Below, piece after piece: positions 12,215-50,001 of a stretch of 64,000 nucleotides of DNA. The DNA is from Platanthera guangdongensis. Taxonomy: Eukaryota > Streptophyta > Magnoliopsida > Asparagales > Orchidaceae. Location: contig CM077149.1 of assembly GCA_039583875.1 (NCBI GenBank), forward strand, positions 19,481,194-19,545,193, in the 5' to 3' direction. The position numbers were made by a program, and so were the translations under genes. Under the pieces are notes generated by a model. It was not told the origin of the DNA. It saw nothing but the letters and a program-made list of their open reading frames with translations, and did no database searches. Position 1 is the stretch's first letter; each line of letters opens with the position of its first letter.

Positions 12215-12886
12215 TGAAAGATAAATTTATGACTAATGAATCATCTAAGGGATGAATAAATGTCTTTTAAATTTCTTTGTTACTTATACTAAAGATACAG
12301 CAGAATTTTGAAAATAAACATTCACAAGCACACAGCACAAGCAATCCACAAAGTACACCGAAATTTTATAGTGATTCTCATATCTAGGGTACATCCACTT
12401 TCCCCCTTCTTCCTCACTAACAATGTACTAGATAAGGTTATATCTCCTACTCTTCAACTCAGATCAACAGGTCTTATAGGCTCAGTTTCTATTAAGAAAC
12501 CTACAACTCAGACCAACATGTCCTACCTCAGATATCCACCCAATCTCCTACCTCAGGTCGCTCAAGAACCCTACCTCAACGTTTATAACACAGACTTACA
12601 CCTCAGTAATCCCACACAAATCACCTACTTCAGGTCCCTCAAGAACCCTACCTCATCCTTTATAAATCAGGCTTACAACTCAGAGAATTTATCTCATACC
12701 CACACAGATCTCAAAAAGATCTTACAAAATTAAGAGGTAAATAAGAATGAAAATAATATAAGAAAACAACAATTCTGTAATCTGACTTATCTAAGAATTC
12801 AAATTCTTCAATTCACCAGCACAAGATAGATTCTTGATAAGCAGACTGACTAAAATGATTTTTCTCTAGATCTGTAATGTTGTAGA
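12215..12886 (-). repeat. 3' LTR of E, internal-side piece
   Basis: It starts TGAAAGATAAATTTATGAC, aligning with the TGAAAGATATTG start of M's LTR. It contains a diverged copy of the CATCTAAGGGATGAATAAATG block and the TTTATAGTG / ACATCCACTTTCCCCC block shared with H and M. CTCAG / CCTAC-rich repeats occur at 12440-12720. It is cut at 12886 by F, and 12882-12886 (GTAGA) is the duplicated target. Confidence 0.75.
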
Positions 12887-13012
12887 TGTAACGTCCCGAT
12901 TCGCACTAGGCCCCTCGTGCGCGTTTTTGAGTCAGGGGTGCTGACTTGGGTTCGGAGAAGTGCTGGCAGCTGGGCTGCACTTGTAAATGGGAGGAGAAAT
13001 CAGTACAAAATA

Positions 13013-13600
13013 GGACACGGGTAGAGACACGGGCATGTCCCTACCCGTGTGGGAGAGGCCAGCTCTCGAGTCGACGACTTGAGTGTGTCCAGAGAAGGAC
13101 ACGGGTAGTGACACGGGCGTGTCACTACCCGTGTGAAGTGACACGGGTAGAGACACGGGCGTGTCCCTACCCGTGTGAAGTGACACGGGTAGACACATGG
13201 GTGTGTCCATACCCGTGTGTGTCGAGTTGAACTCGACGAAGTGTGTCAAGATCGACGAAGTGTGTCGAGATCGACGAAGTGTGTCGAGATCGACGAAGTG
13301 TGTCGAGATCGACGAAGTGTGTCGAGATCGACGAAGTGTGTCGAGATCGACGAAGAGTACCCGAGAAGGACACGGGTAGAGACACGGGCGTGTCCTTACC
13401 CGTGTGTGTCGAGTGGAGTTCGTCGAGACGTGTCCAGATAAGGACACGACTAGAGAACTCGACCGTGTCATGTGGACACGAGTCGGGACACGGGCATGTC
13501 CTTACCCGTGTCGAGTATTGAACTGACACTTAAACTGTCGTTGACGCTTTGCCCGAGCAGGACACGGGTAAGGACATGGGTGTGTCCCTACCCGTGTCAC
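13013..13600. repeat. ACACGGG hairpin array in 5' LTR of F
   Basis: At least seven imperfect hairpins have arms ACACGGGTAG and CTACCCGTGT enclosing GACACGGGCGTGTC (for example 13015-13050, 13100-13135, 13140-13176, 13370-13405, 13559-13599). The same array recurs at 20960-21265 and 21720-21875 in the 3' LTR. Related ACACGGGCGTGT hairpins are in the LTRs of G and in solo LTR I. Confidence 0.85.
13243..13357. repeat. 19-bp tandem repeat, six units
   Basis: The unit TGTGTCGAGATCGACGAAG is repeated about six times without gaps. Each unit is itself an inverted repeat around GATC (TCGA...TCGA). The 3' LTR has only about two units at 21175-21212, so the array changed copy number after or during insertion. 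Confidence 0.9.
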
Positions 13601-13606
13601 GTTTCA

Positions 13607-13616
13607 CATATAAGGG
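13607..13616 (+). promoter_or_regulatory. TATA box in 5' LTR of F
   Basis: CATATAAGGG, identical in the 3' LTR (21884-21893). A transcript starting about 30 bp downstream would have a leader of roughly 100 nt before the ATG at 13744. Confidence 0.65.
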
Positions 13617-13743
13617 TTGTGAAAACCCTAGCTGTTTTCACTCCTCATTCCAGCCATTTTTCCTGAGAGAAACTTTTGTAGAGAGGGAAAACTGCTGGAG
13701 CAACTCCTAGAGGAGAAGATCCGCCGCCGCCGTGAAAGAGAAG

Positions 13744-13803
13744 ATGCAGCCGAGAAGAGTCACAAGATCCATGGATGGAAATAGTGGAAACACCGAAAAT
13801 GAG
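13744..13803 (+). CDS. gag: Candidate LTR-encoded gag exon 1 of F
   Basis: An ATG 135 bp after the TATA box opens 20 codons (MQPRRVTRSMDG...) that end in GAG|GTGAGC, a consensus 5' splice donor in phase 0. The M-x-P-R-R and R-V-T-R-S signature also appears in the candidate gag start of element G. In the 3' LTR the equivalent exon (22021-22080) has a one-base insertion and an early stop, but that copy would not be needed for gag. It is a prediction from splice signals and phase; no transcript evidence is available. Confidence 0.55.
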
Positions 13804-15551
13804 GTGAGCTTCCTCCCCTCTCCCTCGGTGCTTTTCAAATAAACATGAAAGTTGAATTACTTGAAAATACCTTTCCAACGAGTGGTTGCACGACTTCAGG
13901 CGAAGTCTGTAGCCACGAGAAAGTCTGAACGAAAATGACATCTGATAAATCCTGCATGCAGAAATTGTGTTCTGTACGCAGCGGATTTCAAGGCTGATTT
14001 CATGTATGATACTATTGAATATGGGTTGTGGTATGAACATAAAAATTGTAGCCCATGGAAAGACATTTCCATCGGGGTGTTACACGTCTTCACCGGATTC
14101 CTGTAGCTTCGGAAATCTCCGGTTGAAGTTGCTGTCTAGATTTATCCTGTACTTAAATTCTGGGTTGGAATAATATTGAATTTGGACTCGGTAGAGATAA
14201 TGTTGCAATTAAGTTGAGGCTTGGTGAACCTTTTTACGTTAACCATCTTAGTCCAATGAATGATGATATTTATTAATTGGATTCCACATAGTTGATTTGT
14301 GAAGCGAAGCATACATAAACGAAACGATTTGATAGAAATTGGTAGACTATTATAAATGCACATCATAATAATAACATGTTGGATCATTTGGGATGAAAGG
14401 TAGGATGATAACTTATGGCCATGTGTATAATTGTTTAACAGATTGAATTTAGTGTCCAATGCTTAGAGTGTCGTCTCCCTACGGGTAGCATTGTGAAGGG
14501 ATGTAAGTGTGGTGTTGACCGTCACTTGTTGGGATGGCAATGAGATAAGTCAAAGTTGGACGGTTGGGCTTGGTCCTCGGTGCTCATTTCCCGGGGCTCC
14601 TTCCGTGCCGAGAGGATGGTTGGGCTTGGTCCTCGTTCTTTCTCCGAGGCTCCTTCCATGCTACGGTGATGTGGAATTGCACGAGGTGTGAGTTGACACG
14701 CGGTGTCGTAATCCTGGGTTAAGATAGTGTGGGAGGTCTACGGGCTCGCCGATCGTCACACCGACGGGAGTTGACAGTTAGACTTTGGGTGGTCAGGCTT
14801 GGTCCTCAGTGTTCACGTCCTGGGGCTCCTTCCATGCCAAGTGAACGGTTGGTCTGGGTCCTCATGCTTATTTCCGAGGCCCCTTCCGGGTAGCACAAGG
14901 CCAGTTCGGGACTTGGTTCTCGATGCACATCTACCCGAGAACCCCACTGGGCCATAGTACGCATGGGCTCCGCTGTTGTGTTCTTAGCATTGAGGCGTAC
15001 GGAGGCCTAAGTGAAGTAGTGTGGATAACCGCCTAGTAGTAGAGATACCCGCTCTACTGTCACCGCCTGGCCACGTCGGTTGATGCCTGAGAGGTTAGCT
15101 ACCTGCTCGAAAAGTGGGAATTACAAGTCTGTGTCGACATAGCGGTTGCATGTGTGTGATCATAGGTGAGTCATTGCATAGTATGCATACCATTACATAA
15201 CATTGCACAAACAAGACCCTCATCGTATAAATTTGTATGAGCGCGCTTATACGATGAGTTACTTTATGTAAACTGATCCTTAACTTATAAGCTTGTATGA
15301 GCATCCTTATAAGTTAAGTTACTTTCCTGCTGTAGATACTTATACTTGATGGTTCGTTATTGATTTGTAGAACTGCTATATTATATTACTGTTAATCTTA
15401 TCATTATTACCACCTGCTTGTGCCTCTTTATACTATTTATTATACTTGTACCCTTGCTCTTTTCTCCGCCCGGTGCCGAGGATTCGCCGGGCGAGCGGAT
15501 GTGAAGCCACTTAGTTTTTTCGACTAACAGTTGCTACGTCTTCCTTTTTAG

Positions 15552-15656
15552 GAGGTCACCCCACAGGTAGAGCAGCCGCAGACTATGCAGCAGTACAGCC
15601 AGGACAGGACGACAGGGCCTGAAGTGACGGTGATGTCATTACCGTCGATTACTGAT
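15552..15656 (+). CDS. gag: Candidate LTR-encoded gag exon 2 of F
   Basis: Preceded by TTCCTTTTTAG, a strong acceptor. 35 codons open in phase 0 (EVTPQVEQPQTM...), ending ACTGAT|GTTAGT. In the 3' LTR the same exon (24171-24275) is again 105 nt, stop-free, and ends at the ideal donor GTGAGT. Unspliced, the frame closes six codons further on. Spliced to 16156 it joins the gag frame in phase. The eight differences between the two LTR copies all change amino acids, so there is no sign of recent purifying selection. Confidence 0.45.
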
Positions 15657-15962
15657 GTTAGTGTTGAGCGACTCTGATGTAGCCCCGTTGGGCATTTATT
15701 TGCTGTACTCTGATATTGTAGAAGCATGTTTTAGCTACTTTATTTGATGTACTTTGGACTTATATGCTTGGTGTGGATTTTACTTCTCTTATATATTTTG
15801 GTTGGGTTGACATATTTATTGATATTGGTGGTAGCCGGCAGAATAGGCATCTTGTAATACAGGTTAACCTGTGTGCTAATGATACCGTAAGGCGGCTGTT
15901 CTGGGCATAAGACCACCCTTCGTGCCGTGTTTTGGGATCCGGGAGGGGGGGGGTCTTAAAAA

Positions 15963-15975
15963 TGGTATCAATTTG
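15963..15975 (+). promoter_or_regulatory. Primer-binding site of F
   Basis: TGGTATCA follows two bases after the LTR end and matches the start of the initiator tRNA-Met site TGGTATCAGAGC; the remainder has diverged. It lies inside candidate intron 2 (15657-16155), so splicing would remove it. Confidence 0.75.
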
Positions 15976-16155
15976 ACACGATCCTCAACTAAAGAAGTCA
16001 TTCAACAATGGTACCACCCCCGTTCGATTAGTCATTTTGTGGACAAACTGACTTAGCAGAAGCAGTGGTGTGCCCATATGTAATTCACACTAAGTATGTC
16101 CAACTTTGAACTTTGGATTAGCTAACTTGACCATACGTTTGTATGCTACGTGTAG

Positions 16156-19100
16156 ATTCCAACGCACGTTGAGCCGATGGGGGGCACTCCTGCCCCTTCG
16201 ATACCCACTCAGTTCCAACAATCTGAGTTAGGGCAGACGCTCACCGCCATCCTGGATGCCTTTAGGGCGCATCAACCTCCAGTGCAACAACATGCTCCGG
16301 GCTCTAACTAGCTGAGCACCTTCCGGGCTCTCTCCCCTCCCGCCTACCTTGGGACAGAGTCGGCTGCACGCACTGAAGAATGGCTCGATACAGTGCAGGA
16401 GCTATTGGCGGGGATCCGTTGCCCAGCCAACATGGCTGTAACATTGGTGGTGTCCGTATTGGAACTACATGCTAAGAGGTGGTGGAAGTACCTCATGGGC
16501 TCCACCTTCCAAGGGCGAGTCTATACAGAGATAAGTTGGAGCGAGTTCTCGGGTGTCTTCTTGGAGCAGTTCATCCCCTCATCCGCTCGAGATGAACTCG
16601 AAGAGAGGTTTCTTCTGTTGAAGCAAGGATCAAAGATGGTTGCGGAATATCAGCGAGAGTTCCAACATCTCGCGAGGTTCACGGAGTCATATGATCTAGA
16701 TGATAGAGGATATGCCAAGCACTTCTACAAAGAGCTGTGAGATCCCCTAAGGCAGGCCCTATTGTTTATAGCAGACGCTAGCTTGACGGAGATTATCGAC
16801 ATGGCGAAGAGATTGGAAGCGGACCACTTGGGAAGTGGTTGGAGGCCTGCGGAGGGCATAATGGAAGCTGGCCCAAGCAACAGAAGGAGACAGGACTTTA
16901 GAATGGGAAGGGGACATCAAAGAGGTGGAGGACATTTCCATCGAGATTTTAGAGTGGAGCATCCGGTCCCGCAGCCACCCGCGTTGCCTCCACCACCACA
17001 GCCTCAACAATTTCAGCAACCTGAGGGGCGTCGTGGGATGGTGTGTTTTGAATGCAACCAATCGGGCTAGATTCGATATATCTGCCCGCAGTTGTTTAGG
17101 AACGTCCCTCCTGCTCTCCCTCCGGCAGCTCCTCGAGGACAGGGTTACATGTGTGGTCGAGGACGAGGGCCGCGAGGAGGAAACCCCGGTCCTGCCCGGG
17201 ATCAAGTGTACGCGCTGGACATGGTGCAAGAACGGAATCCACATGATGTTATTGCAGGTATGTTGCAGTTAGCCTTCTCATTTTTATTGTTTAAGTTAAG
17301 TTGCTTAAGACATATTAGACACCTACTGTTGAGTTTTGGTTTTTGTTACTTAGGCACCGTGGTAGTCGGCGGGAAGACGGCCTATACGCTGTTCGATACC
17401 GGTGCCTCATACTCTTTTGTGTCTGAGGACTTCATTAAAGACATAGAAGGTGTATAATACTTTACTGGTATAGCTCGATGAGTATGCCTCCCGGATGGCT
17501 CTGAGATGACCGCAACCGCTAAGTGTGAGCAAGAGATATTCATTGGGGGAAAGGCCTTTGATATGCCTGCCACGGTCTTGAGAATACCGAAATTTGACAT
17601 CATTTTGGGCATGACGTGGTTGTACTGGAACTTCGCTAGGATCGACTGCGCGGAGAAGCGAATCTCTTTGAGACATGGAGACACCGACGTCATCTTTCAA
17701 GGTATTAACTTCACACCTCGTATGTTGTTATCTTCAGTTCAGGCTGTAAAAGCCCATATGAAGGGGGATGAAGTCTTCATGATTTGTTTCGAGTTGAAGG
17801 ATATGGCGTTGGATATGAAAGATGTACGGGTAGTACGGGACTTCCCCGAGGTATTTTCTGAGAAACTGCCAAGATTACCCCTGCATAGAGAGGTTTATTT
17901 TCAAATTAATTTAGTACCGAGTGCTAAGCCTGTATCCAGGGCCCCTTACCGAATGGCCCCGAAGGAACTCGCTGAGTTTAGAGTTAAACTGCAAGAACTG
18001 GTGGAGTCAGGGTTCGTTCGCCCCAGCTCGTCACCCTAGGGAGCCCCTGTATTATTTGTCAAGAAGAAGGATGGAACCCTGCGTTTGTATATAGACTACC
18101 AGGAGCTCAATCGACTGACGGTGCAGAACACTTATCCGCTACCCCGGATCGACGAGCTGTTCGATCAACTGGTGGGAGCGCATTGGTTTTCTAAGTTGGA
18201 TTTGCGCTCAGGATATTATCAGTTAAGGATATGAGAGGAGGACATCCAGAACACGGCCTTTAGTTCAAGATATTGACTGTACGAGTTCACTATAATGCTA
18301 TTTGGGCTCACAAATGCCCCTTCGGCCTTCATGAGCCTAATGAACAAGGTGTTTGAACCTTATTTGGACATCTTCATCATTATTTTCATCGACGACATCT
18401 TGGTCTACTCAAATACGGAGGAGGAGCATATTGAGCACTTGACCTTGGTATTGAAGAAATTAAAAGAGCACGCATTGTTCGCCAAGTTCAGTAAGTGCGA
18501 ATTCTGGCTTAAAGAGGTTGCTTTCTTGGGGCGTGTGATAAATGTAGCAGGACTAGCGGTGGATTCGGCCAACGTGCGTGCCGTGAAGGAGTGGTCGCCC
18601 TTGAAGTCGGCGGCCGATGTGCGGAGCTTCCTTGGATTTGCCGGGTATTACCGCAAGTTCGTAAAAGGATTCTCAAAGATTGCCCTCCCTCTTACTTTCT
18701 TGACAAAGAAAGGTGTTCCATTTGAGTGGACACCCCAATGTGAAGCGGCGTTCCAAGTGCTGAAGGATAGACTTACCTCCTCCCCCATCCTAGCACTTCC
18801 GTCTGGGAAGGAAGAATTTCAAGTTTACACCGATGCGTCATATTAAGGGATGAGAGCGGTATTGATGCAGCACGACCATGTAATTGCCTACACCTCAAGA
18901 CAGCTGAAGAAGCATGAGATAAATTATCCGGTTCGTGATTTGGGGTTGGGAGCAGTGGTTTTCGACTTGAAGGTTTGGAGGCGCTATCTATATGGCGTCC
19001 ACTGCGAGATCTTTTCAGACCATAAAAACCTAAGGTATGTTCACACACAGAAGGAACTGAACCTGAGACAATGGCGATGGTTAGAGTTTCTGTGCGATTA

Positions 19101-20831: not shown

Positions 20832-21300
20832 TGTAACGTCCCGATTTGCACTAGGCCCCCTCGTGCGCGTTTTTGAGTCAGGGGTGCTGACTTGGGTTCG
20901 GAGAAGTGCTGGCAGTTGGGATGCACTTGTAAATGGGAGGAGAAATCAGTACAAAATAGGACACGGGTAGAGACAAGGGCGTGTCCCTACCCGTGTTGGA
21001 GAGGCCAGCTCTCGAGTCGACGACTCGAGTATGTCCAGAGAAGGACACGGGTAGTGACACGGGCGTGTCACTACCCGTATGAAGTGACACGGGTAGAGAC
21101 ACGGGCATGTCCTTACCCGTGTGAAGTGACACGGGCGTGTCCCTACCCGTGTGTGTCAAGTTGAACTCGACGAAGCGTGTCGAGATTGACGAAGCATGTC
21201 GAGATCGACGAAGAGTACCCGAGAAGGGCACGGGTAGAGACACGGGCGTGTTCCTACCTGTGTGTGTCGAGTTGAGTTCGTCGAGACGTGTCCAGAGAAG

Positions 21301-21714
21301 TGTTGAAGTTGGTGACCTGGCGGTCTGTCTTGGCGGGTTGAACATCGCGCGGTCTGGCGGTTTCCCTTCAGTGGTTTGGTTGCTATGTTGTTGCTGTCTT
21401 GAGTCCGAGCGGTCTAGTGGCTTGCCTCTAGAGACTTGGAGACCGGGTGGTCTAGCGGTCTCCCATAGTGATCTCTCCCTCTCTCTGGTGGTAACCAAGC
21501 GGTTAGCACTTCTGTCTAACCACGCAACTTGTGCGAGTTGTTTTGTATTAGTCCGCTTAGTCCTGTAAATTTTTAGTCCCACATCTCTTATTTGTATTCT
21601 CTCATCTCTCCTCCATTCTATATAAGGGAGGCCATACCTTTGTAATAGATACCTTTTTGGGATAATAAAGTTTCTGTTAAACCAATTCCGGTTTGTTTTT
21701 GTTCGTTTTTAACA
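21301..21714 (+). mobile_element. Small copia-type solo LTR (414 bp) inside 3' LTR of F
   Basis: The ends TGTTGAAGTTGG and TTTTTAACA are flanked by a perfect AGAAG duplication (21296-21300 and 21715-21719). It contains a TATA box (CTATATAAGGGAGG near 21618) and an AATAAA-like signal (GATAATAAAG near 21661), correctly ordered for an LTR on the plus strand. The insertion is absent from the 5' LTR, so it arrived after F. No internal region remains, so it was left by LTR-LTR recombination or arrived as such. Confidence 0.88.
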
Positions 21715-22110
21715 AGAAGGACATGGCCAGAGAACACGGTCGTGTCATGTGGACACGGGTAGGGACACGGGCATGTCCCTACCCGTGTCGAGTATTGAAC
21801 CGACACTTAAACTGTCATTGACTCTTCGCCCGAGCAGGACACGAGTAAGGACACGGGCGTGTCCCTACCCGTGTCACGTTTCACATATAAGGGTTGTGAA
21901 AACCCTAGCCATTTTCACTCCTCATTCCAGCCATTTTTCCTGAGAGAAACTTATGTAGAGAGGGAAAACTGCCGGAGCAAGTCCTAGAGGAGAAGATCCG
22001 CCGCCGCCGTGAAAGAGAAGATGTCGCCGTGAAAGAGTCATAAGATCCATGGCCGGAGATAGTGGAAATGCCGAAAATGAGGTGAGCTTCCTCCCCTCTC
22101 CCTTGGTGCT

Positions 22111-22454
22111 AGATCTGTAGTTATCTAGGCGAGATGTCGACTCAAAAGAGTCTTGACTAGCGAGATGGTGATTTCTCTAGGAAGAGGCCGTTATAGGGCT
22201 TGTGCTCTAAGGCTTGTTGTGTCTTCAACCTCTCCAACCTTCTATGTGAATATGGGGGATGGTTTCGTGAAGAGTCATGGCCTCATGAGTGTGAATAAGG
22301 GAGGAGGAATCTCTGGTGTGATTTGCGAAGATCGGCTTGAGGAGGAAGATGAACCGATGCCGTTCATTCTGCCTTTAAGATGCGTGCAGAATCGGTGTTC
22401 AGTGTACAGTGATCATCTTGGCTATTTTCTGATGAGCTATTTCCAGATCTGGGC
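22111..22454 (+). other. 344-bp block present only in the 3' LTR of F
   Basis: It lies between GGTGCT and TTTTAAC, starts AGATCTG and ends near CCAGATCTGGGC. The 5' LTR joins the two sides directly. There are no TG...CA ends and no target duplication, so a deletion from the 5' LTR is more likely than a transposon insertion. It falls inside the candidate LTR intron. Confidence 0.6.
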
Positions 22455-24586
22455 TTTTAACTAAACACAAAAGTTGAAGTCCTTGAAAATACCTTTCCAA
22501 CGAGTAGTTGCACGACTTCAGGCAAAGTCTGTAGCCATGAGAAAGTCTGAACGAAAATGACGTCCGATAAATCCTGCATGCAGAAATCGTGTTCTGTACG
22601 CATTGGACTTCAAGGCTGATTTTATGTATGGTAATATTGAATCTGGGTCTTGGTATGAACATAAACATTGTAGCCCATGGAAAGACCTTTCCATCGATGG
22701 GTTACACGTCTTCACCAGATTCTTGTAGCTTCAGGAATCTCCAGTTGAAGTTACTGTCTAGATTTATCCTGTACTTAAATTCTGGGTTGGAATAATATTG
22801 AATTTGGACTCGGTAGAGATAATGTTGCAATTAACTTGAGGCTTGGTGAACCATTTTATGATAACCATCTTAGTCCAATGAATGATGATGATTATTAATT
22901 GGATTTCATATAGTTGATTTGTGAAGCGAAGCATACTTAAACGAAACGATTTGATAGAAATTGGTAGACTATTATAAATGCGCATCATAATAATATGTTG
23001 AATCATTTGGGATGAAAGGTAGGATGATAACTTATGGTCATGTGTATAATTGTTTAACGAATTGAATTTAGTGTCCAATGCTTAGAGTGTCATCTCCCTA
23101 CGGTAGCATTGATAATGGATGTAAGTGCGGTGTTGACCGTCACTAGTTCGGATGGCAATGAGATGAGTCAAAGTCGGACGGTTGGGCTTGGTCCTCAGTG
23201 CTCATTTCCCGGGGCTCCTTCCGTGATGAGAGGATGGTTGCGCTTGGTCCTCATGCTTTCTCTGAGGCTCCTTCCATTCTACAGTGATGTGGAATTGCAT
23301 GCGGTGTGAGCCGACACGCGGTGTCGTAATCCTGGGTTAAGGATAGTGTTGAAGGTCTACGGGCTTGCCGATCGTCATACCGATGGGAGTTGACAGTTAG
23401 ATTTTGGGTGGTTGGGCTTGGTACTCATTGTTCACGTCCCGGGGCTCCTTCCATGCCAAGTGAATGGTTGGGCTGGGTCCTCATGCTTATTTCCGAGGCA
23501 CCTTCCGGGTCACACAAGGCTAGTTCGGGACTTGGTTCTCGGTGCACATCTACCCGAGAACCCCACTGGGCCATAGTATGCATGGGCTCCGCTGTTGTGT
23601 TCTTAGCATTGAGGCGTACGAAGGCCTAGGTGAAGTAGTGTGGATACCCGCCTAGTAGTAGAGATACCCGCTCTACTGTCACCGTCTGGCCACGACGGTT
23701 GATGCCTGAGAGGTTAGCTACCTGCTCGAAAAGTGGGAATTACAAGTCTGTGTCGACATAGCGGTTGCATGTGTGTGATCATGGGTGAGTTATTGCATAA
23801 CATACATACCGTTACATAACATTGCACAAACAAGACCCTCATCGTATAAGTTTGCATGGGTACTCTTATACGATGAGTTATTTTATGTAAACTGATCCTT
23901 AACTTATAAGCTTGTATGAGCATCCTTATAAGTTAAGTTACTTTCCTGTTGTAGATACTTATACTTGATGGTTCGTTTTTGCTTTGTAGAACTGCTAGAT
24001 TATACTACTGTTAATCTTATCAATATTACCACCTGCTTGTGCCTGTTTATACTATTTATTATACTTGTACCCTTGCTCTTTTCTCCGCCCGGTGCCGAGG
24101 AGTCGCCGGGGGAGCGGATGTGAAGCCACTTAGTCTTTTTGACTAACAGTTGCTACGTCTTCCTTTTTAGGCGATCACCCCACAGGTAGAGCAGCCGCAT
24201 ACTATGCAGCAGGACAGCCAGGCCAGGACGACAGGGCCTGAAGTGACGGTGCTGTCATTATCGTCGGTTACTGATGTGAGTGTTGAGCGACTCTGATGTA
24301 GCCCCGTTGGGCGTTTATTTGCTGTACTCTGATATTGTAGAAGCATGTTTTAGCTTCTTTATTTGATGTACTTTGGACTTATATGCTTGGTGTGGATTTG
24401 ACTTCTCTTATATATTTTGGTTGGGTTGGCATATTTATTGATATTGGTTGTAGCCGGCAGAATAGACGTCTTGTGGTACAGGTTAGCCCGTGGGCTAATG
24501 CTACCGCAAGGTGGCTGTTCTGGGCATAAGACCCCCCTTCATGCCGTGTTTTGTGATATGGGAGGGAGGGGGGGTCTTACAGTAGA

Positions 24587-26922: not shown

Positions 26923-29049
26923 TATAACACCCCCTATTCGTCGCATAGTATATAACAGTAAGTCCGACCGGGACCCGACGCCATATAGCACAGATAGACC
27001 GGGTGGTTACTCAATAGAATACCATCCAACTAATAACCAACGTCCTACACAGAGTCATTTTAGCGGAAGCAATTTAATAGTTACAAATTTAGAACCCAAC
27101 ATAAGCATGAATGTCCACTACTAAAACCAACAGGAATGAACGTACAATACACAAGTACAATGGCCTTAAGGCCTTACAATTGTTTACTCAAATAAAATGT
27201 GTCTTCCATACCACGACACGCAGGCCGGTCACACATGAATAAAACAAGTAAACACTCAAAATATGGCCTTCGAGGGCCGGCTCAGTAACTTGGGCTTCAG
27301 CCCGCAATTTACCGCTCGGCTCCGCAACACCTGCAAGCAACAATCCACCGTAACAGTGGCAAACAAAAATAACGGTCAGCTATGCTGACCAAATTATAAC
27401 GATCCCGCCACCATAATCGGGGCGGCGATGTTCTTTACCTACACTTTGTTAGCATAACCAAGCAATATAGTGAATAAACACTTCATCACAGGTATGGGCA
27501 CACACGGCCTCATACCCCGTGCTCTCAGGGCCCATTCTCGGTGAACCGGTCCACGTCACGTCAATTTAAGCCATAGACATTTCGGTCTCACCACCGCCAC
27601 TTGGACGGCCAACCTCGTGAGCATTTAGATCCTTCCGGCCGATGTCACGTCAGTTTAAGCCATAGACAACCTGAGACCTACTATCTATGCCAACAGCAAG
27701 TCCTACGTAGCTTTAGGTCGCTTGAACCGAATGACAAAGGCCATGCACGGTTCCGCTTAACCCGTTGCTCACACTGCAACGTCAATTTAAGATATATGCG
27801 CGGGTTAGCTCCCCGAGTCCCAAATCGTTTACACACATCACATAACCCAGTTATGTTCAAGTTGGCTCCCAGGCCACCATGTTGGCAGAATCACACATTT
27901 GCCCAGATTTATGGGTGCACCTTGGAGTTAATCCCCAAGGCTCCTTGTTTCAATCTACCGCGTAGAAAACTCGAAAAACAATCATTCGCGCGGAGTCTTC
28001 TCCGGCCATTCATGCAATATAACATCACCGATCCAGACCAACTTGTCCGGGTAGGCTTCACACGTCATGCCTATATCCGTTCTCGAATACAGACTCTATA
28101 TGCTAAACAACGGGGACTATTCATGTCTACCCGAAGGAACGCCTCAAACTCACCACAAACTCGCAAGAGCAGACATCCTATGTAAAGAAAAGAGGACTTC
28201 ACATGTCCTAGGATGAGAATCATTACCCTAGCATTTCTCCTTGGCGCCATGGAAATGTATGCGGAAAAAATGCACCGCAATCTCCTCGACTCCGTAGATC
28301 TGAAGTCGGCTTGCGATTTGGAGCTCCGAAGCTCCGCCGGTGACCGGATCTAGCCTCCTTCTTTTTCCTTGCTCTCCCCTCTCTCTAGAACTTTGGAAAG
28401 AGATTGAGTAAGAGAAATGAGGGCTTTGAAACCCTATTCTCGGGTATATCCCAGCAGGAATAACCCCCAGCCATCGGATCCCAAAATAAGGAAATGAACA
28501 GCCACGATTCGCCATTAAAATCCAAAATCTAGGCCGAATACGGCCTGTGACATGCCCGTGTACAGGGCCGTGTTCCCCATTCGCCGTCGAAACCGACGCA
28601 TCCCGAAAAGAACACGGGCACCTGACATGCCCGTGTTAAACTTGACACGCCTGTGTCATACAGAACACGGTCGTGTACTATGCCATGTTACTCCATCGAC
28701 ACTGGACCAACACCAACCCGAGAAGAACACGGGTCTTGGACATGCTCGTGTCCCATTTGACACGCCGGTGTCTACCTGACATGGCCCGTGTGCCGACCCC
28801 GTGTATCAACCACTCCACAGCCCGGCTTTAATCCATGGAGGACAAGGCCTGGGACACACCCGCGTCTCAGGTCGTGTTCGCTGCTCGACGAACGTCGACT
28901 CAAAAATTCGTCGACCTCTTGGCCAGATCGTCGACCCGAGCATGACACACCCTGGGACATGCCCGTGTACCAGGCCGTGTGACCCCTGCCAAGTTCCAAA
29001 CTTTGCTCAAAACGCCACTCGTTGCTCTTTTGAGTTTCGGGGCGTTACA
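26923..29049 (-). repeat. 3' LTR of G (2127 bp)
   Basis: On the minus strand it runs from TGTAACGCCCCGAAAC to AGGGGGTGTTATA (CA mutated to TA at the end). It contains ACACGGGCGTGT hairpins (28545-28980) and a candidate gag exon 1 with intact ATG (28227-28250). A T-rich acceptor-like TTGCTTGCAG lies near 27330. Confidence 0.92.
28227..28250 (-). CDS. gag: Gag exon-1 sequence in the 3' LTR of G (24 nt, intact ATG)
   Basis: The minus strand reads ATG then seven codons (MAPRRNAR) and a donor AGG|GTAATG. The 5' LTR copy, the one that would be used, is at 49199-49222 and has TTG in place of ATG. The exon is also 24 nt in solo LTR I (44538-44561, MTQKRTTR). This conservation across three LTRs supports a real exon. 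Confidence 0.5.
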
Positions 29050-29135: not shown

Positions 29136-30271
29136 CTACGGGTACTCCTCAAGCATGGTCTGCTCTCGCTCCCACGAGAGCTCTTCCTGATCGCAGTTGT
29201 CCCAACGGACCTTGACCATCATGATCTCTTTGTTACGTAGCCGCTTGACTTCCGAGTCCTCAATGCGTATGGGCTTGACCTTCGTCGTCAACTCATTATC
29301 GACCGACACTTGATCCACCACAATCACTTGTGAAGGCTTCTGCACCGCCTTCCGCAGCACCGATATGTGCAATACATCGTGTAGGCCACTAAGCTCCACT
29401 GATAGCCTCAATCGATAAGCTGCTTCGCCAATCCACTCCAGAACCTCAAACGGTCCAAGGTATCTCGGGCTTAGCTTCTTCAAGTGCCGCACCCACGAGA
29501 CACCCTTGAACGACTTGATCTTCAAGTACACCCAGTCGCTGACAGCGAACCCCACGTTCCTATGCTTGGCATTATAGTACTTAGCTTGCCGGTCCTGCGC
29601 GATTAGCAACCTCTCTCGAATCATTCGAACCAACGACGTTGCATCTTCCACCTCTTAGCGCTTGTACAACTTTGACTCACCCGTTTCCAACCAAGACAAC
29701 GGCGTGCGATATCTTCTACCATAAAGGGCCTCGAAGGGCGGCATTTGTATGCTCGCCTGGTAGCTGTTGTTGTATGCAAATTCCACCAAGTATAGCTGGT
29801 CTTCCCACTGCTTCCCAAAATCCAGGACGCACATGCGAAGCATATCTTCCATCGTCCTCATGACACTCTCGGCCTTCCCATCCATTTGCAGATGAAAGGC
29901 TGTGCTGAAACTCAGTTTTGTTCCCAACATCTGTTGGACCAACCTCCAATCATTGGACGTGAATCGCCCATCTCGGTCACTCACAATGCTGCGGGGCACA
30001 CCGTGAAGCCGTACTATGTTATCCACATATAACTTTGCCAGTTTCTCCACGGAATCATCCTTCCTATGCGGAATGAAGTATGACACCTTCGTCAAATGAT
30101 CTACGACCACCCAGATGACGTCATTACCCTTCTAAGACCTTGTCAAACCATGCACAAAGTTCATAGTAATGTCGTCGAACTTCCACTCCGGAATAGGCAA
30201 GGATTTCAAAAATCCTCCCGGCTTTTGGCAATCCGCCTTCACCAAGGCACATGTTTGACACTTTGCCACGT
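29136..30271 (-). pseudogene. pol: Integrase core, C-terminus and chromodomain-like tail of G
   Basis: It continues the integrase broken by H. CQTCALVKADCQKPGG begins at about 30265, followed by the core VVVDHLTKVSYFI and GVPRSIVSDRDGRFTS. The conserved AYNNSYQASI / EALYGR block and the SPRYLGPFEVLEWIG C-terminal domain come next. The tail VKVRWDNCDQEELSWERE is chromodomain-like. Stops occur at about 30134 and 29655. Role: inserts cDNA, with the tail presumed to guide it to heterochromatin. Confidence 0.85.
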
Positions 30272-42265: not shown

Positions 42266-43856
42266 TCCACATCCTACTTAAGTCCTGGCCACCAGAACAA
42301 TTTCTTCACGTCGCGGTACATCTTCATGCTCCCCGGGTGAATTGAGTACTTGGTGTGATGCGCCTCGTACAACAATTCCACCCGTAGATTTCCCACATTT
42401 GGGACGCATAGACGACCGTCTTTCCAAAGCAATCCATCCTCAACAACAAATTGGGAATTTGACCCATCCAAAGCCTCCATCATGAGTTGCTTCATGCGGC
42501 CATCCAAATCCAAAGCCTGCCGAATCCGATCAGCCAGGTCACACTGAACCTCCGTCCAGTTCAATAGTGCTTCAACACTTGACTGCTTGTCTATGCAAGA
42601 AATCTCCAACGCCTCCAACTCCCGAACTAACCGCTCGTCATGGACCGACAACCAATTGGTTTGAGCTGGGGCCCTGCAACCCAACGCGTCCGGAACCGCA
42701 TTGCCTTTCCCAGGCACATAGTGAATTTTGAACGTGTAGTCCCCATGGAACTCCATCCATCTCCTCTATCGCATGTTTAGATCTTTCTGATCCAACAAGT
42801 ATTTCAGGCTCTTATGGTCGGTATAGATATCGACCTTCACCCCGTACAAGTAATGTCTCTAGAGCTTCAAGGCAAAAATCACGGCAGCTAACTCCAAGTC
42901 ATGGACAGGATAATTCCTCTCGTGCACTTTCTGCTGTCTCGAGCCATACGCTATCACACTTCCATGCTGCAGTAGTACACAACCCAAGCCACTTCCAGAA
43001 GCATCGCTGTAGATTTCAAAGCCTTTGGTCCCACTCGGCGAACTCAGTATAGGCGCCGTGGTCAGCCGACTCTTCAACTCCTCAAAAGCTCGTGCGCACT
43101 CCGGCGTCCAAATGAACTTCTGCTCTTTTCTCGTCAAAGTCGTGATGGGTAACGCTATCCGCGAGAAGTTCTCCACGAAGCTCCTGTAATAGCCGGCAAG
43201 CCCCAAAAAACTCCAGAATTCCACTACCGTAGACAGCATAGGCCACTCTCATATCGCAACAATCTTCGTCGGATCCACCACAATTCCCTCTCCACTAACT
43301 ATGTGACCAAGAAACGCCATCGAGGATAACCAAAACTCGCATTTGGAGGCCTAGGCGTACAATTGATTCCTCCTCAGCGTCTCCAGCACCAAATGCAGAT
43401 GCTTAAAGTGATCCTCCTCACTTTGCGAGTACACCAAAATGTCGTCGATGAAGACGATCACAAAGTGGTCTAAGTACTCCATGAAAGTCTTGTTCATCAA
43501 ATCCATGAACACCGACGGCGCATTCGTCAGCCCAAACGGCATGACCGTAAACTCATAATGGCCGTATCTCGTACTAAAGCTGTTTTGGGGATATCACTCT
43601 CCCTTATCCTCAGTTGATAGTAATAGTACTTAAGATCCAATTTAGAGTACACCGATGACCCGACTAACTGATCGAATAGATCGTCAATCGTTGGGATCAG
43701 GTACTTGTTCTTCTCTGTTAGCTTGTTCAACTCCTGATAATCAATACAAAGTCTCAAGCTTCCGTCCTTCTTCTTAACAAAGAGGACTGGTGCGCTTCAA
43801 GGTGACGAACTTGGACACACATACCCCTGCTCCAACAACTCTTGCAGTTGAACCTT
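42266..43856 (-). pseudogene. pol: RT, RNase H and integrase N-terminus of G
   Basis: RT begins at about 43800 ([23 protein letters not shown]), with [10 protein letters not shown] and FIDDILVYS near 43450. RNase H ([22 protein letters not shown]) and the integrase zinc finger (EAHHTKYSIHPG, DVKKLFWWPG) follow until H interrupts. Defects: TGA for Trp in SSSPW near 43797, a one-base loss near 43582 (ALVRD for AFSTR), and stops at 43351, 42859 (Trp) and near 42767 (Gln). The stop in SSSPW is at the same residue as in F (18037). Confidence 0.88.
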
Positions 43857-45820
43857 TGTAATGCCCCGAAAATCGTTATCGAGCTAGTCGCGTCCAAAAG
43901 TAATTTTGGTGCCTGCATAGGGGTACACGGCCTAGGACACGGGCGTGTCCAAGGCCGTGTCTGGCATGGTGTTTTGGCCGATTTTATCCCGAGAAGGACA
44001 CGGCAAGAAACACGGCTGAATGACACGGGCGTGTCATTTGACACGGGCATGTGCCTACCCGTGTCAGTACCCGTGTTCCATAGAGTCGTGACGGTTGGCA
44101 TGATGGTTATTCGTGACACGCCTCCGGTCACGGGCGTGTCTAAGACACGACACGGGCGTGGCAGGTTGGGACACGGGCGTGTTTTGCCCGTGTGGTTTTT
44201 CTGTGTTCGACGATCGTGCTAGGATCGAGGCACATGGCCTGGGACACGGCCGTATACGAGGCCGTGTTTGGCCCAGGTTTGAGGATTTCTGTGCAGATTT
44301 GAGCCGTTAGTTTTCTTTAATTAAGATCTGACGGCCCAGGCATGTTCCTACTCTGTTAAGGCCAGGAATGGTGCTTTAGCTCCTCAGTTCTCCCTTAAGA
44401 TTTCTCTTTCCAAGGATTTAGAGCAAGGAGGAAGAAGGAGGATGATTCCGGCCGCCGGTGGAGCACCGTTTAGAGAACCGAGAGCGGATCTGTGGAGGAA
44501 ATCCCGTTGCAAAGACTTCTATCCGTGTACTTTTCCCATGACGCAAAAGCGTACTACAAGGGTAACGATTCTCTTCTTGAGCATGTGAAGCTCTCTTCCT
44601 TTTTGCATAGGGAAACCCTCTCCCACGAGTGTGCGGCGAGTGTGCGATGTTCCTTGGGGTTGACGGGAATAGTCCCCCTTGTGTTGCATATAGAGTCCGG
44701 AATCGAAGTACGGGAATAGGCATTATGTGTGAAGCCTACCCGGACATGTTGGTCTGGATCGGTGATGTTGCATTTGTTATGATTTGCCGGAGAAGACTCC
44801 GTGCTTTGGGTTTTCGGGTTTTTATGCGGTAGATTGCAGCAGGGATCCTTAAGAATTAACTCTAAGGCGCACCCGAAAAACTGAGCTGAATAGTTGTTCT
44901 GCTAACTTGGCGGTCTGGGAACCGGCCTTGAACATAACTGTGTTATGTGATTGTTTGGAAATGACAGGATCCGAGAGAAGCTTGGCTCGTACGTACGTCT
45001 TAAGGTGTACTACGCGTTGTGAGCAACGGGCAAGTGGAATCGGACCTGGGCTATGTGGTTCGGTGCGAGAGACCCGAAAAGGGGACTGGCCGTTGGCATA
45101 GTCGGGAGCCTTAGATAGTGGTCAGAAAGGCTAAAATGCTCACGTTGTTGCCATCCCAGGGGTGGTGGTGAAGACGCTGAAGTGTCATGATTCACCGATA
45201 ATGTGCCCTGAGTGCACGGGGTGTTTGGTCGTGCGAGCCTACACCTGTGGCTATCATGTTTGTACTATATTATTTTAGCTGGGCTAATGAATTGCAGGGA
45301 AGGAGCACCGCCGTACCGAGTTAGGGGCGGGGTCGTTATAATTTGGTCGGCTTTTGGCTGACCGTTGTTTGTTTGCCACCGTGCGGTGGAATGTTGCTTG
45401 TAGGTGCTGCGAAGCCGAGTACCAAATAGCGGGCTGGAGCTAATGTTGTTGTGCTGGCCCTAGAAGGCCAAAGCGAATAGTTATACTTTTTTATGTCATG
45501 TGTGGCCGGCCTGCGAGCCGATGTATGGAAAACATTATTTAATTAAGTGAACCTCTATATGACCATAAGGCCGTGTACCTTTCAGTGTATTTGTTTTCAT
45601 TCCAGTTGTAGTGGTGTTGGACATTCATGATTATTGGATACAATTATGGGTTCTCTCAACTGTTTAAAAGCTTCCGCTAGGATGCTCTGTGTTAGGACGA
45701 GTAGTCTTAATTGGATAGTTTGGTTATTCATACGTAACCCTTCCGACTGTCCGTGGTATATGGTGTCGGGTTCCAGCTGGACCTTCTAATATATGCCATA
45801 CGACGGATGGGGGTGTTACA
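43857..45820 (+). mobile_element. Solo LTR I (1964 bp), same family as G, opposite orientation
   Basis: The ends TGTAATGCCCCGAAAA and GGGGGTGTTACA are flanked by a perfect ACCTT duplication (43852-43856 and 45821-45825). Its last 70 bp match the end of G's LTR (GGTGTCGGGTTCC, ACGACGGATGGGGGTG). ACACGGGCGTGT hairpins are at 43925-44275. A 24-nt exon-like ATG...AGG|GTAACG is at 44538-44561, and an acceptor TTGCTTGTAG|GTGCTGCG lies near 45400. It interrupts G between protease and RT. Confidence 0.92.
44538..44561 (+). other. Exon-1-like start in solo LTR I
   Basis: ATG plus seven codons (MTQKRTTR) ending AGG|GTAACG. It has the same 24-nt length, position and basic character as the G exon. With no internal region attached, it cannot be expressed as gag from this locus. 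Confidence 0.45.
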
Positions 45821-45825
45821 ACCTT

Positions 45826-46463
45826 CAGCTCCGCCATTTCCTTAGGCGCTAGCCGATACCGAGAGCGTGATACAGGTTTAGCACCTGACACTAGCTCGAT
45901 GGTGGAATCAATCTCCCGTTGAGGCGGGGCTCCAGGAAGATTGCCAGGGAACGCATCAGGGTACTTGGATACCACTGAAATACTGTCCAACGTAGGCTTA
46001 GGCTTTGCAACCTCCACTAGCATAAATAATAGCTCTGCACCTGCACGAACCGCCTTCACCACATGAAGAGCAGACATCAAAGTCTTGCTCGACCTTTTCA
46101 GGCCCGTAAAAGTCGTCTCACGATCTGTTCCCAACTTGACTTCCTTACGATCGCAATCAATAAAAGCTTGCTGCTCGGAGAGCCAGTCCATGCAAAATAT
46201 AACGTCGAACTCCACCAGCGGTTGTAATGATGCTTACAAATTGAACTCTTGACTCCCAATATGAATCTTTATGCCACAGATTCTATCTACTCGCTTCGAA
46301 CACCCATTCGACAACAACACATCCAGTTTGTCCTTCTCCATCGAAGAAGGTACTCCGATGCGCGATATGAATCCTTCGGACAAAAAGGAGTGTGAAGCTC
46401 CCATATCGAAGAGTGCTCTCGCCAGATTCTCACAAATCAAAACAAATCCAATACAAGCAGTGG
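45826..46463 (-). pseudogene. pol: Protease and linker of G
   Basis: The protease active-site region reads ALFDMGASHSFLS, so DTGA has become DMGA. VEFDVIFCMDWLSEQQAFIDC and the linker to RT (FPGNLPGAPPQREIDSTIELV, RYRLAPKEMAELK) follow until solo LTR I cuts the frame. A stop lies near 46234. Confidence 0.82.
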
Positions 46464-46523: not shown

Positions 46524-47669
46524 ATGTCACTACATCCGCTTGAATAATGACCTCTTGCTGGCCAAGATTGTAAACTCTAGGTTGAGCCGGAGCATAATGG
46601 GGTGCGGTTGACTCCATCGCCTTGCCCTTTTCTTCATATGTTATTCCTGGATTCCTTTCGGACTTGGGACGTCCGCTCCAGTAGTCACGGGCAAAGTGCC
46701 CCGGCTTCCCACAAGTAAAGCATGCTCCCAGGGTTCGACCCGTAGTCGCCCCAGAAGCACCAGAAGAAGGAGCTGGCCCGAAGTCCTAGCCTTCTTATGA
46801 AACTTACGGTATCCAGACTTCGAGGTAGTCGGCACCTTGAACTCTATCTTCTTATTACCAGTGTCTTTCTTTGCTTGCACATTCTTCAGAACTATTTCCA
46901 AAGAGTGCGTCGTATTGACCAGGGTCAAGAATCCCTACGTCATAGGCCCTGAGAGCAGTAGCCTCAGGTCGTCCCTCAGACCCTCGTATAATCGGTTCAT
47001 CTTACGCTCCTTATCTGTAAATGTAGAGCTAGCGTACCGACCCAATCGAGTAAACTCGTGGAGATACTCATCCACGCTACTCTCTCCTTGTGCCAGCCTC
47101 TGAAACTCATTCTCCATTGTAGTCCTCTGAGTCGAAGGAAGGTACCTTGCCAAGAACAGTCCCGAAAACTCTTCCATCGGGATGTCCGTGAGTTGCCTCC
47201 CTCTCAAGTGATGGAGCTCCAAACCTTCCCACCACAACCTAGCATCACCGTCCAGAAGGAACGTAGCTATAGTGGTCATCTGCCACTCCTCCGTTTCAGT
47301 AGTTGTCGGGACTCTCTTCACTCGGGAGAGCCAGTCTTCAGCTTGAGATGGGGTTCCCAACCCCGAGAACACAGGAGGATTAAAGCTCATAACATGTTTT
47401 AGTTGCATTTTAGTTGCTCTCCTCGGCACCAAAGGCTCCACCACTACCTGATCCACCCTTCTTAGTTCATCCCTTTGAAGCGGTACCTGCTCCATTGTAG
47501 GAGCGGGCTGCTGCATTTGCCTTGCAGGCTGCGCATTGATTATGGCAAACACTACTTCGGCAGCCAATCATATGGTTTCAGCTGAGGGAGGTGTTGCAGG
47601 AGCATTATTCGGTGCACTGCTAGCCTCAGAAACTGGGCGTTCTGACGGCCCTGCATCGCTTCTGGTCAC
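46524..47669 (-). pseudogene. gag: gag body of G (candidate exon 2)
   Basis: An acceptor ACAACTATAG|GTGACC at 47670/47669 opens VTRSDAGPSERPVSEAS in phase with the LTR exon MAPRRNAR. TGA at 47568-47570 fits CGA to TGA. The gag core DGDARLWWEGLE...FSGLFLARYLPS lies at 47150-47350. TAG follows GPMT at 46935, and a shift lies near 46790. The knuckle is CFTCGKPGHFARDY, with the last Cys lost to Tyr. Without the LTR exon there is no upstream ATG in this frame. Confidence 0.8.
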
Positions 47670-47878
47670 CTATAGTTGTACAAAATACCATTAAGAGACC
47701 AAACAAAATTGCAAAAAGCAATTATAGGAACACATAGGTTCCTCAAACACATGTATTTTCATTCCTAAGTGGACATTAATGGGTTCTTTTGATGTTATAA
47801 CGATGACGCACACACATGTGCTTACCACCCCTTAAAAGAATTCGCCCATGAATTCATTTAAGCCTGACCGAAACCCGT

Positions 47879-47889
47879 AGTATGATACC
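47879..47889 (-). promoter_or_regulatory. Primer-binding site of G
   Basis: The minus-strand TGGTATCATAC, two to three bases after the LTR, is a diverged initiator tRNA-Met site. It lies within the inferred LTR-to-gag intron (49198-47670). Confidence 0.8.
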
Positions 47890-47893
47890 AAAT

Positions 47894-50001
47894 TATAACA
47901 CCCCCTATCCGTCGCATATCATATAGCAGCAGGTCCGGCCGGGGCCCGACGCCATATACCACAGATAGACCGGGTGGTTACTCAATGGAATACCATCCAA
48001 CTAATAACCAACGTCCTACATAGAGTCATTCTAGCGGAAGCAATTTTAATAGTTACAAATTTAGAACTCAGCATAAGTATGAATGTCCACTACTCAAACC
48101 AACAGGAATGAACGTACAATACACAAGTGCAATGGCCTTAAGGCCTTACAATTGTTTACTCAAATAAAATTTGTCTTCCATACCACGACACGCAGGCCGG
48201 TCACACATGAATAAAACAAGTAAACACTCAAAATTTAGCCTTCGAGGGCCGGCTCAGCAACTTGGGCTTTAGCCCGCTATTTACTGCTCAGCTCCGCAGC
48301 ATCTGCAAGAAACAATCCACCGTAACGGTGGCAAACAAAAGCAACGGTCAGCTATGCTGAGCAAATTATAATGATCCTGCCCCCATAATCGGGGCGACGA
48401 TGCTCTTTCCCTGCACTTTGTTAGCATAACCAAGCAGTATAGTGAATAAACACTTCATCACAGGCATGGGCACACACGACCACACACCCCGTGCTCTCAG
48501 GGCACATTCTCGGTGAACCGGTCAATGTCACGTCAATTTAAGCCATAGACATTTCAGTCTCACCACCGCCACTTAGACGGCCAATCTCGTGAGCATTTAG
48601 GTCCTTCCGGGCGATGTCATGTCATTTTAAGCCATAGACAACCCGAGACCTACTATCTATGCCAACGGTAAGTCCCGCGTAGCTTTAGGTCACTTGTACC
48701 AAACTATATAGATCGGGCACGGTTCCGCTTAACCCGTTTCTCACACCGCAACATCAATTTAAGCCACATGCATGAGTTAGCTCCCCGAGTCCCAAATCGT
48801 TTACACACATCACATAACCCAGTTATGTTCAAGTTGGCTCCCAGGCCACCATGTTGGCAGAATCACGCATCTGTCCAGATTTTCGGGTGCACCTTGAAGT
48901 TAATACCCAAGGCTTCCTGTTGCAATCTAACGCGTAGAAAAACCGAAAAACAATCATTCGCATGGAGTCTTCTCCGACCATTCATGCAATGCAACATCAC
49001 CGATCCAGAGCAATTTTTCCGGGTAGGCTTTACACATCATGCCTATATCCATTCTCGATTACGGACTCTACATGCTAAACAATAGGGACTATTCATGTCT
49101 ACCAGAAGGAACGCCTCAAACTCACCGTAAACTCTCGAGAACGGGCTTCCTACGCAAAGAAAAGAGAACTTCACATGTCCTAGGATGAGAATCATTACCC
49201 TAGCATTTTTCCTTGGCGCCAAGGAAATGTATGCGGATAAAAAGAACCGCAATCTCCTCGCCTCCATAGACCCGAAGTCGGCTTACGATTTGGAGCTCCG
49301 AAGCTCCGCCGGTGACCGGATCTAGCCTCCTTCTTCTTCGTTGCTCTCCCCTCTCTCTAGAACTTTAAAAAGAGATTGAGTAAGAGAAATGAGAGATTTG
49401 AAACCCTATTCCCGGGTATATTCCAGCAGGAACAACCCCCAGCCGACGGATCCCAAAATAAGGAAACGAACGGCCACGATTCGCCAATGAAATCCAAAAT
49501 CTGGGCCGAACACGGCCTGTGACACGCCCGTGTCCAGGGCCGTGTTCCCCATTCTCCGTCGAAACCGACGCGTCTCGAAAAGAACATGGGCACTAGACAC
49601 GCCCGTGTCATCCAGAACACGGCCGTGTACTGTGCCGTGTTACTCCATCGACACAGGACTAACAAAAACCCGAGAAAAACACGGGTCTTGGACACGCCCG
49701 TGTCCTATTTGACACTCCCGTATCTACCTGACACGGCCCGTGTGCCGACCCCGTGTATCAACCATGCCACAACCCGAATTTAACCCATGAAGGACACGGC
49801 CTGAGAAACGCCCGTGTCTTAGGCCGTGTTCGCTGTTTGACGATCGTCGACTCCAAAATTCGTCGACCTCTCGGCCAGATCGTCGACCCGAGCACGACAT
49901 GCCCTGGGATACGCCCGTATCCCAGGCCGTGTGACCCCTGCTAATTTCTGAATTTGGCTCAAAACGCCACCCGTTGCTCTTTTGAGTTTCGGGGCGTTAC
50001 A
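47894..50001 (-). repeat. 5' LTR of G (2108 bp)
   Basis: It aligns end to end with 26923-29049. Hairpin ACACGGGCGTGT motifs lie at 49508-49935. Candidate exon 1 is at 49199-49222, with start ATG changed to TTG and donor AGG|GTAATG kept. It is flanked at 50002-50006 by GACAT. Confidence 0.93.
49199..49222 (-). pseudogene. gag: Candidate gag exon 1 in the 5' LTR of G (start codon lost)
   Basis: TTG GCG CCA AGG then four codons and the donor GTAATG at 49198. Joining to 47669 removes 1529 nt including the primer-binding site and keeps phase 0. The ATG survives in the 3' LTR copy, so the loss is recent relative to insertion. Confidence 0.5.

Follow-up and report, generated by a model that had tools for sequence, protein, structure and literature searches.

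Plant retrotransposons with long terminal repeats (LTRs) are generally intron-free, and the accessible text of a 2025 review, which also mentions BARE1, singles out Ogre and EVADE as notable exceptions (PMC12786077). The intron of Ogre, a Ty3/gypsy element, is the only one discussed in the accessible part of PMC6317226, and the sunflower copia elements Tyran and Varan are reported from nanopore reads to be spliced, in an expressed set for which the available text gives no Tekay element (PMC7730604). BARE1 (Ty1/copia, barley) is described as translating and replicating distinct pools of RNA and as using splicing in gag expression (PMC3735527), and a preliminary description of the locus treated here was correct in calling spliced gag RNA known for BARE. 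The soybean Ty3/gypsy element Diaspora has program-predicted LTR donors and acceptors that flank the gag start, and the same source, as far as it was accessible, states that as of 2005 an intron upstream of gag was unreported for LTR elements (PMC1142308). In rice tungro bacilliform virus (Caulimoviridae), according to the accessible text, splicing fuses a short leader open reading frame (ORF) to the distant ORF IV, which is then translated (PMC5902531). Here we analyse a stretch of 64,000 nucleotides from the orchid Platanthera guangdongensis (contig CM077149.1, positions 19,481,194 to 19,545,193; hereafter the window), which contains the two Ty3/gypsy elements G and E2. Judging from their sequences, it is likely that gag of both elements starts in the LTR and is joined to the gag body by a predicted splicing event, across an intron that contains the primer-binding site.

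Element G lies on the minus strand, where its LTR pair was read in the window (5' LTR 50001-47894, 3' LTR 29049-26923), and the parts that concern us are these:

47894..50001, minus strand: 5' LTR of G, with the target site duplication (TSD) ATGTC on both outer sides, at 50006-50002 and 26922-26918
26923..29049, minus strand: 3' LTR of G, 89.5% identical to the 5' LTR
49199..49222, minus strand: candidate gag exon 1 in the 5' LTR, by direct reading; TTG instead of ATG in the window copy, LAPRKNAR
28227..28250, minus strand: candidate gag exon 1 in the 3' LTR, ATGGCGCCAAGGAGAAATGCTAGG followed by the donor GTAATG, encoding MAPRRNAR
47670..49198, minus strand: predicted intron, GTAATG...TATAG, 1529 nt, covering the remaining LTR and the primer-binding site
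47883..47890, minus strand: primer-binding site, TGGTATCA; other aligned copies read TGGTATCAGACT
46935..47669, minus strand: candidate gag exon 2, reaching from the acceptor to where the core ORF ends, with PF03732 and an in-frame stop after 33 codons

Exon 1 is 24 nt long, a whole number of codons, and ends AGG|GTAATG with the donor GT at 49198-49197. Direct reading thus confirms the eight-codon exon that had been reported first, with its ATG in the 3' LTR, its TTG in the 5' LTR and its donor. The candidate acceptor reads ACAACTATAG|GTGACC (TATAG|GTGACC), with the AG at 47671-47670. That it opens the phase of the gag core had also been claimed, and this part stands, as exon 1 and exon 2 would be in phase with the core domain PF03732; the coordinate was off by one, exon 2 starting at 47669 and not at 47670. 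The length of 1.5 kb proposed for the intron, and its inclusion of the 3' part of the LTR and the primer-binding site, agree with the prediction above. In the gag frame, exon 2 is directly preceded by a TAG stop codon, the AG of which is the acceptor itself, and unspliced RNA can therefore not enter gag from upstream in that frame.

Copies of G were sought in the whole assembly (4.25 Gb, 274 contigs), and two samples were drawn, one from the best 40 of 6227 candidates matching the LTR exon and one from the best 40 of 5317 matching the gag leader. The 39 LTR-exon matches outside the window comprised 15 with a readable acceptor, three with the leader only and 21 with neither within the fetched stretch. 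The second sample was chosen independently of the exon and consisted of the first 21 of its 39 non-window matches minus one already in the LTR sample, and in these 20 copies the exon was sought in a slot of 411 nt about 1.5 kb upstream; the exon region was present there in 16. Both ends are accordingly readable in 31 non-window copies, 15 selected by LTR and 16 by gag leader. The ATG is kept in 28 of the 31, the donor GT in 29, the exon length of 24 nt in 27 and the acceptor AG in 30, and 21 copies have all four. The corresponding numbers are 14, 14, 11, 14 and 8 for the 15 LTR-selected copies, and 14, 15, 16, 16 and 13 for the 16 gag-leader-selected ones, 12 of which also have exon 2 open for 46 codons. 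Of 30 LTR loci, the 3' LTR of the window included, 29 have the exon ATG and 28 have the donor GT in register. The preliminary description had left the conservation of the 24-nt exon, GT and AG to an alignment of young copies, and in the genomic copies aligned here each single feature is kept in 27 to 30 of 31. Four copies (L037, L041, L063 and L065) share the loss of one base in the A run of exon 1, and could be either a non-autonomous sublineage or the product of a slippage hot spot.

The second element, E2, is separate from G and has the same LTR-exon plan:

12887..15960, plus strand: 5' LTR of E2, with the TSD GTAGA at 12882-12886 and 24582-24586
20832..24581, plus strand: 3' LTR of E2, with the same TSD pair
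13744..13803, plus strand: candidate gag exon 1 in the LTR, MQPRRVTRSMDGNSGNTENE, 60 nt, ending GAG|GTGAGC
13804..16155, plus strand: predicted intron, 2352 nt, covering the remaining LTR and the primer-binding site TGGTATCA near 15963
16156..16755 (first 600 nt), plus strand: candidate gag exon 2, GTGTAG|ATTCCAACG, with two internal stops

Exon 1 of E2 runs ATGCAGCCG...GAAAATGAG|GTGAGC and encodes the peptide MQPRRVTRS...NTENE. It is preceded by CATATAAGG near 13608 and by 106 nt from which ATG is absent, and its donor, GAG|GTGAGC, is near the plant consensus. The acceptor TAG lies in the gag frame, which is in phase from 16156. A CTAAC stands 31 nt upstream of the acceptor AG in E2, and a YTRAY branch-point-like site 22 nt upstream of the AG is present in the window copy of G and in 14 of 15 other copies. 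The U content is 32% in the last 100 nt of the E2 intron against 20% in the first 100 nt of exon 2, and in G the values are 43% and 18%. The 3' LTR of E2 also carries a foreign insert of about 400 bases, at about 21297-21716, which is absent from the 5' LTR.

The N-termini of six pineapple gag proteins resemble such a start. Searches of the protein database gave three matches with the gag core, 11 with a three-row alignment and 39 with a pineapple gag as query (P0012, itself a weak match of the G gag profile, with 31% identity over 36% of P0001). Six of these 39 proteins (P0014, P0015, P0021, P0024, P0035 and P0041) begin M[PASV]PRR.TR[SR], and many others begin at inner methionines. Exon 1 of E2, with MQPRRVTRS, departs from this pattern solely by the Q at residue 2. 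In the joined product of G, MAPRRNAR+VTRS, each exon supplies one half of the motif, and three extra residues separate the halves; both families start MxPRR. Among the N-termini listed for the database proteins we found none that spans the junction of G. M.PRR or M.PRK occurs three times on the two strands of the window, and two of the occurrences are these exons; shuffled sequences gave a mean of 1.2 and a highest count of 4, so that the count alone is not significant, and it is the placement that speaks. With the exon ends kept in 21 of 31 copies, the similar plan of E2 and the likeness to six pineapple gags, the earlier proposal of an LTR-encoded first gag exon is supported, with the splicing itself inferred.

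A further comparison is offered by a solo LTR of a related family, which is inserted in G:

43857..45820, plus strand: solo LTR, related family, inside G, with the TSD ACCTT
44538..44561, plus strand: counterpart of the exon, with ATG, the eight codons MTQKRTTR and a donor GTAACG at 44562

It is 67% identical to the 3' LTR of G over aligned columns and retains the exon ATG, the eight codons without indels and 11 of the 12 letters that start with the donor, and the ATG and the basic character of the exon peptide are kept between the two. Read through the donor, the frame ends after 16 codons in the solo LTR and runs to codon 59 in the 3' LTR of G, so a longer ORF in the LTR is not common to both families. 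Some other parts of the LTR are also similar between the families. An inverted repeat, CCACCG..CGGTGG, followed by a T-rich tract and AG, is found at 48270-48350 in the 5' LTR of G and at 45355-45410 in the solo LTR (CCACTG..CGGTGG at 27310-27390 in the 3' LTR of G), with 89% identity over 36 columns between families with 67% LTR identity; it may serve as a structural signal, a 3'-end signal or an acceptor in the LTR. Over stretches of the same length the identity is 97% at 28028-28063 of the 3' LTR of G, and 86% at 27837-27872, which contains the near-palindrome ACATAACTGGGTTATGT.

We hypothesize that the LTR promoter gives rise to a single pre-mRNA with two possible fates. The spliced RNA would gain the gag start and be without the primer-binding site, and would be translated to Gag(-Pol) but not copied. 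The unspliced RNA would keep the primer-binding site, together with dozens of leader ATGs and a closed frame, and would serve for packaging and reverse transcription and hardly for translation. In the 3' LTR the same donor lacks a downstream gag acceptor and would be silent. As spliced RNA offers no site for priming, transposition would leave the intron in place. Whether this goes further, so that a monocot Ty3/gypsy lineage has the gag start in the LTR as a rule, with the spliced RNA as its sole gag-pol mRNA and the unspliced RNA as genome only, and perhaps with the pineapple MxPRRxTR gags included, is a question on which we consider the chances to be even.

Several observations weigh against a gag start in the LTR. 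The exon region was not found in the slot for four of the 20 gag-leader-selected copies, and in four of the 15 LTR-selected copies the exon is 23 nt long, which would put gag out of frame. We had expected the exon letters to be better conserved than the surrounding LTR, and this was refuted, the values being 96.0% and 96.3% among the 30 LTR loci; between the solo LTR and G the exon letters are 67% identical, which is the mean of the LTR. The splice sites of G are also middling. Ranked with an approximate plant matrix, in a leader of 2 kb with 145 GTs and 113 AGs, the donor, which is without G at +5, comes eighth among the GTs and the acceptor eighth among the AGs. Both are surpassed within the LTR, the donor by the site at 49125 and the acceptor, by a wide margin, by that at 48302. 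The leader has no ATG from the expected start site to the exon ATG in 22 of 30 LTR loci (a fixed 190 nt was taken for the seven without a recognised TATA-like site), which fits a start in the LTR exon but does not prove it, since 66% of leader shuffles are ATG-free as well and composition alone can account for the absence. The intron position differs, being after codon 8 in G and after codon 20 in E2, and the junctions may either have moved or have arisen separately. The exon of E2 is known from one element, and the copy in its 3' LTR carries a stop. Finally, an ATG at codon 43 of exon 2, which begins the peptide MINAQ, is retained in 29 of 33 main-subfamily copies of G.

This methionine is the foundation of the main rival explanation, which we regard as unlikely: gag would be translated from unspliced RNA by shunting or reinitiation at MINAQ, and the LTR exon would be a chance feature or a regulatory upstream ORF. 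The Platanthera gene model P0001 begins at MINAQ, and the earlier claim that the gag body has no usable ATG upstream of its core holds for the window copy and not for most others, the lack of this ATG in the window copy being due to decay of that copy. Such a start must however be reconciled with what lies upstream of it. Over the 46 codons from the acceptor to MINAQ, the gag frame of 15 copies, that of the window included, is broken by four stops in all, compared with 42 and 76 for the other two frames. Sequence variants were classed in 33 copies, including the window but leaving out L036 and L057, which have a divergent gag subfamily, and L063, which is cut by another insertion. Those present in at least three copies were counted as shared, singletons were counted apart and variants in exactly two copies were skipped. 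Synonymous changes make up 12 of the 26 shared variants, where 28% is expected, and 14 of the 62 singletons, while each of the shifted frames gives seven of 25 shared; the excess points, weakly, in the direction of coding. Indels in the same copies, one in 138 bases of exon 2 and none in 80 bases of the intron tail, say nothing about coding. The PATHPSAE of protein P0002 resembles, by eye, the PATPPSAE that exon 2 has upstream of MINAQ (P0002 is just 41% identical to P0001), both copies of the L036/L057 subfamily have valine at the position of the methionine (GTG seen in L036), and the intron of the window copy contains 48 ATGs. We take MINAQ as a conserved methionine inside Gag. The two copies of that subfamily match G in the leader and in the opening codons of exon 2, but from about base 1613 in L036 and 1642 in L057 their gag is quite different, as if the template had been switched between families close to where exon 2 begins.

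A still smaller probability is given to the explanation that the LTR donor joins an acceptor within the LTR (48302 or 48410), which would make a leader intron, keep the primer-binding site and have gag start in some other way. The AG at 48302 is the top-scoring of the 113 with the approximate matrix, and its surroundings are those that are 89% identical to the solo LTR. In the 5' copy, however, direct reading shows the joined frames to stop after at most about 20 codons, and by established logic an intron in the repeated part of the LTR would vanish on reverse transcription; the in-frame TAG, the matching phase and the MxPRR and VTRS halves would also be left unexplained. That exon, donor and acceptor are a mere coincidence, an accidental ATG and splice-like letters in decayed elements, is hardly credible, for although the middling splice-site scores of G and the ordinary conservation of the exon letters would suit it, all parts are retained together in 21 of 31 copies, the solo LTR keeps ATG and donor, and E2 repeats the plan.

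Both the LTR pair of 2.1 kb with its TSD ATGTC and the gypsy order of the gag, protease and integrase domains (by a Pfam scan of these parts) place G among the Ty3/gypsy LTR retrotransposons. The Pfam matches are PF03732 (Retrotrans_gag) at 46935-47567, PF08284 at 45724-46233, PF17921 at 42274-42765, PF00665 at 29655-30131 (27.4 bits, below its cut-off of 32.6) and PF24626 at 29136-29654, and a scan of 19969-20745 in E2 also gave PF24626. With Pfam at E 0.001, no chromodomain was found at the C-terminus of the integrase in these two regions, 29136-29654 of G and 19969-20745 of E2, only an SH3-like domain, and the label Tekay is tentative for G. The copy in the window is old: 33 codons of exon 2 are followed by an in-frame stop, and the element is interrupted by a solo LTR that belongs to another family. 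The closest gag found in the protein database is from another orchid, Platanthera zijinensis, with 77% identity. Searches with pieces of gag and integrase confirmed no relative of G among viral contigs, and none was found in the plasmid collection.

It has long been asked how retroelements share out one RNA between translation and replication. If the structure proposed for G and E2 is true, an intron across the primer-binding site settles the division by construction, as the translated RNA cannot be copied, and splicing decides the fate of each transcript, translation or replication. The N-termini of gag and the leaders of abundant plant elements would then be misannotated (a first look gave thousands of G candidates in this genome), and if it is true for the pineapple gags too, an overlooked and widespread gene structure would have been missed by gene finders and element annotators. 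The proposal yields a simple test in RNA data. A likeness can be seen in HTLV/BLV (human T-cell leukaemia and bovine leukaemia viruses) and in foamy viruses, in which the R region of the LTR holds the major splice donor, as the LTR of G and E2 holds their candidate donor; their gag is translated from unspliced RNA, unlike what we propose here.

That an LTR-encoded gag exon is not standard had been assumed from the start, and we found none in the accessible literature on spliced gag and introns of LTR elements, including PMC7730604, PMC12786077, PMC6317226, PMC5902531, PMC3735527, PMC1142308 and PMC9097378, a coverage outside which most subscription papers fall. The nearest precedent in these sources is rice tungro bacilliform virus. 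There too a short leader ORF is joined by splicing to a distant ORF, but, as far as the source shows, splicing yields P4 while unspliced RNA serves for the remaining ORFs; in G and E2 it would be gag that needs splicing, with its first exon in the LTR. EVADE, Ogre, Tyran and Varan are spliced plant LTR elements, as we propose for G and E2, but none is described in the accessible texts with a gag start encoded in the LTR. The gag of Diaspora has, in the available text, its own start codon 873 bp past the LTR (PMC1142308). In BARE1, according to the part available, gag starts after the LTR, two promoters give the two RNA pools, and an intron of 104 nt, which inactivates pol, begins 2 nt after gag ends (PMC3735527). 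In the Arabidopsis copia element EVADE, as described in the text at hand, splicing takes out the protease domain. The splicing of BARE1 and EVADE thus separates Gag from Gag-Pol, whereas that of G and E2 would separate mRNA from genome.
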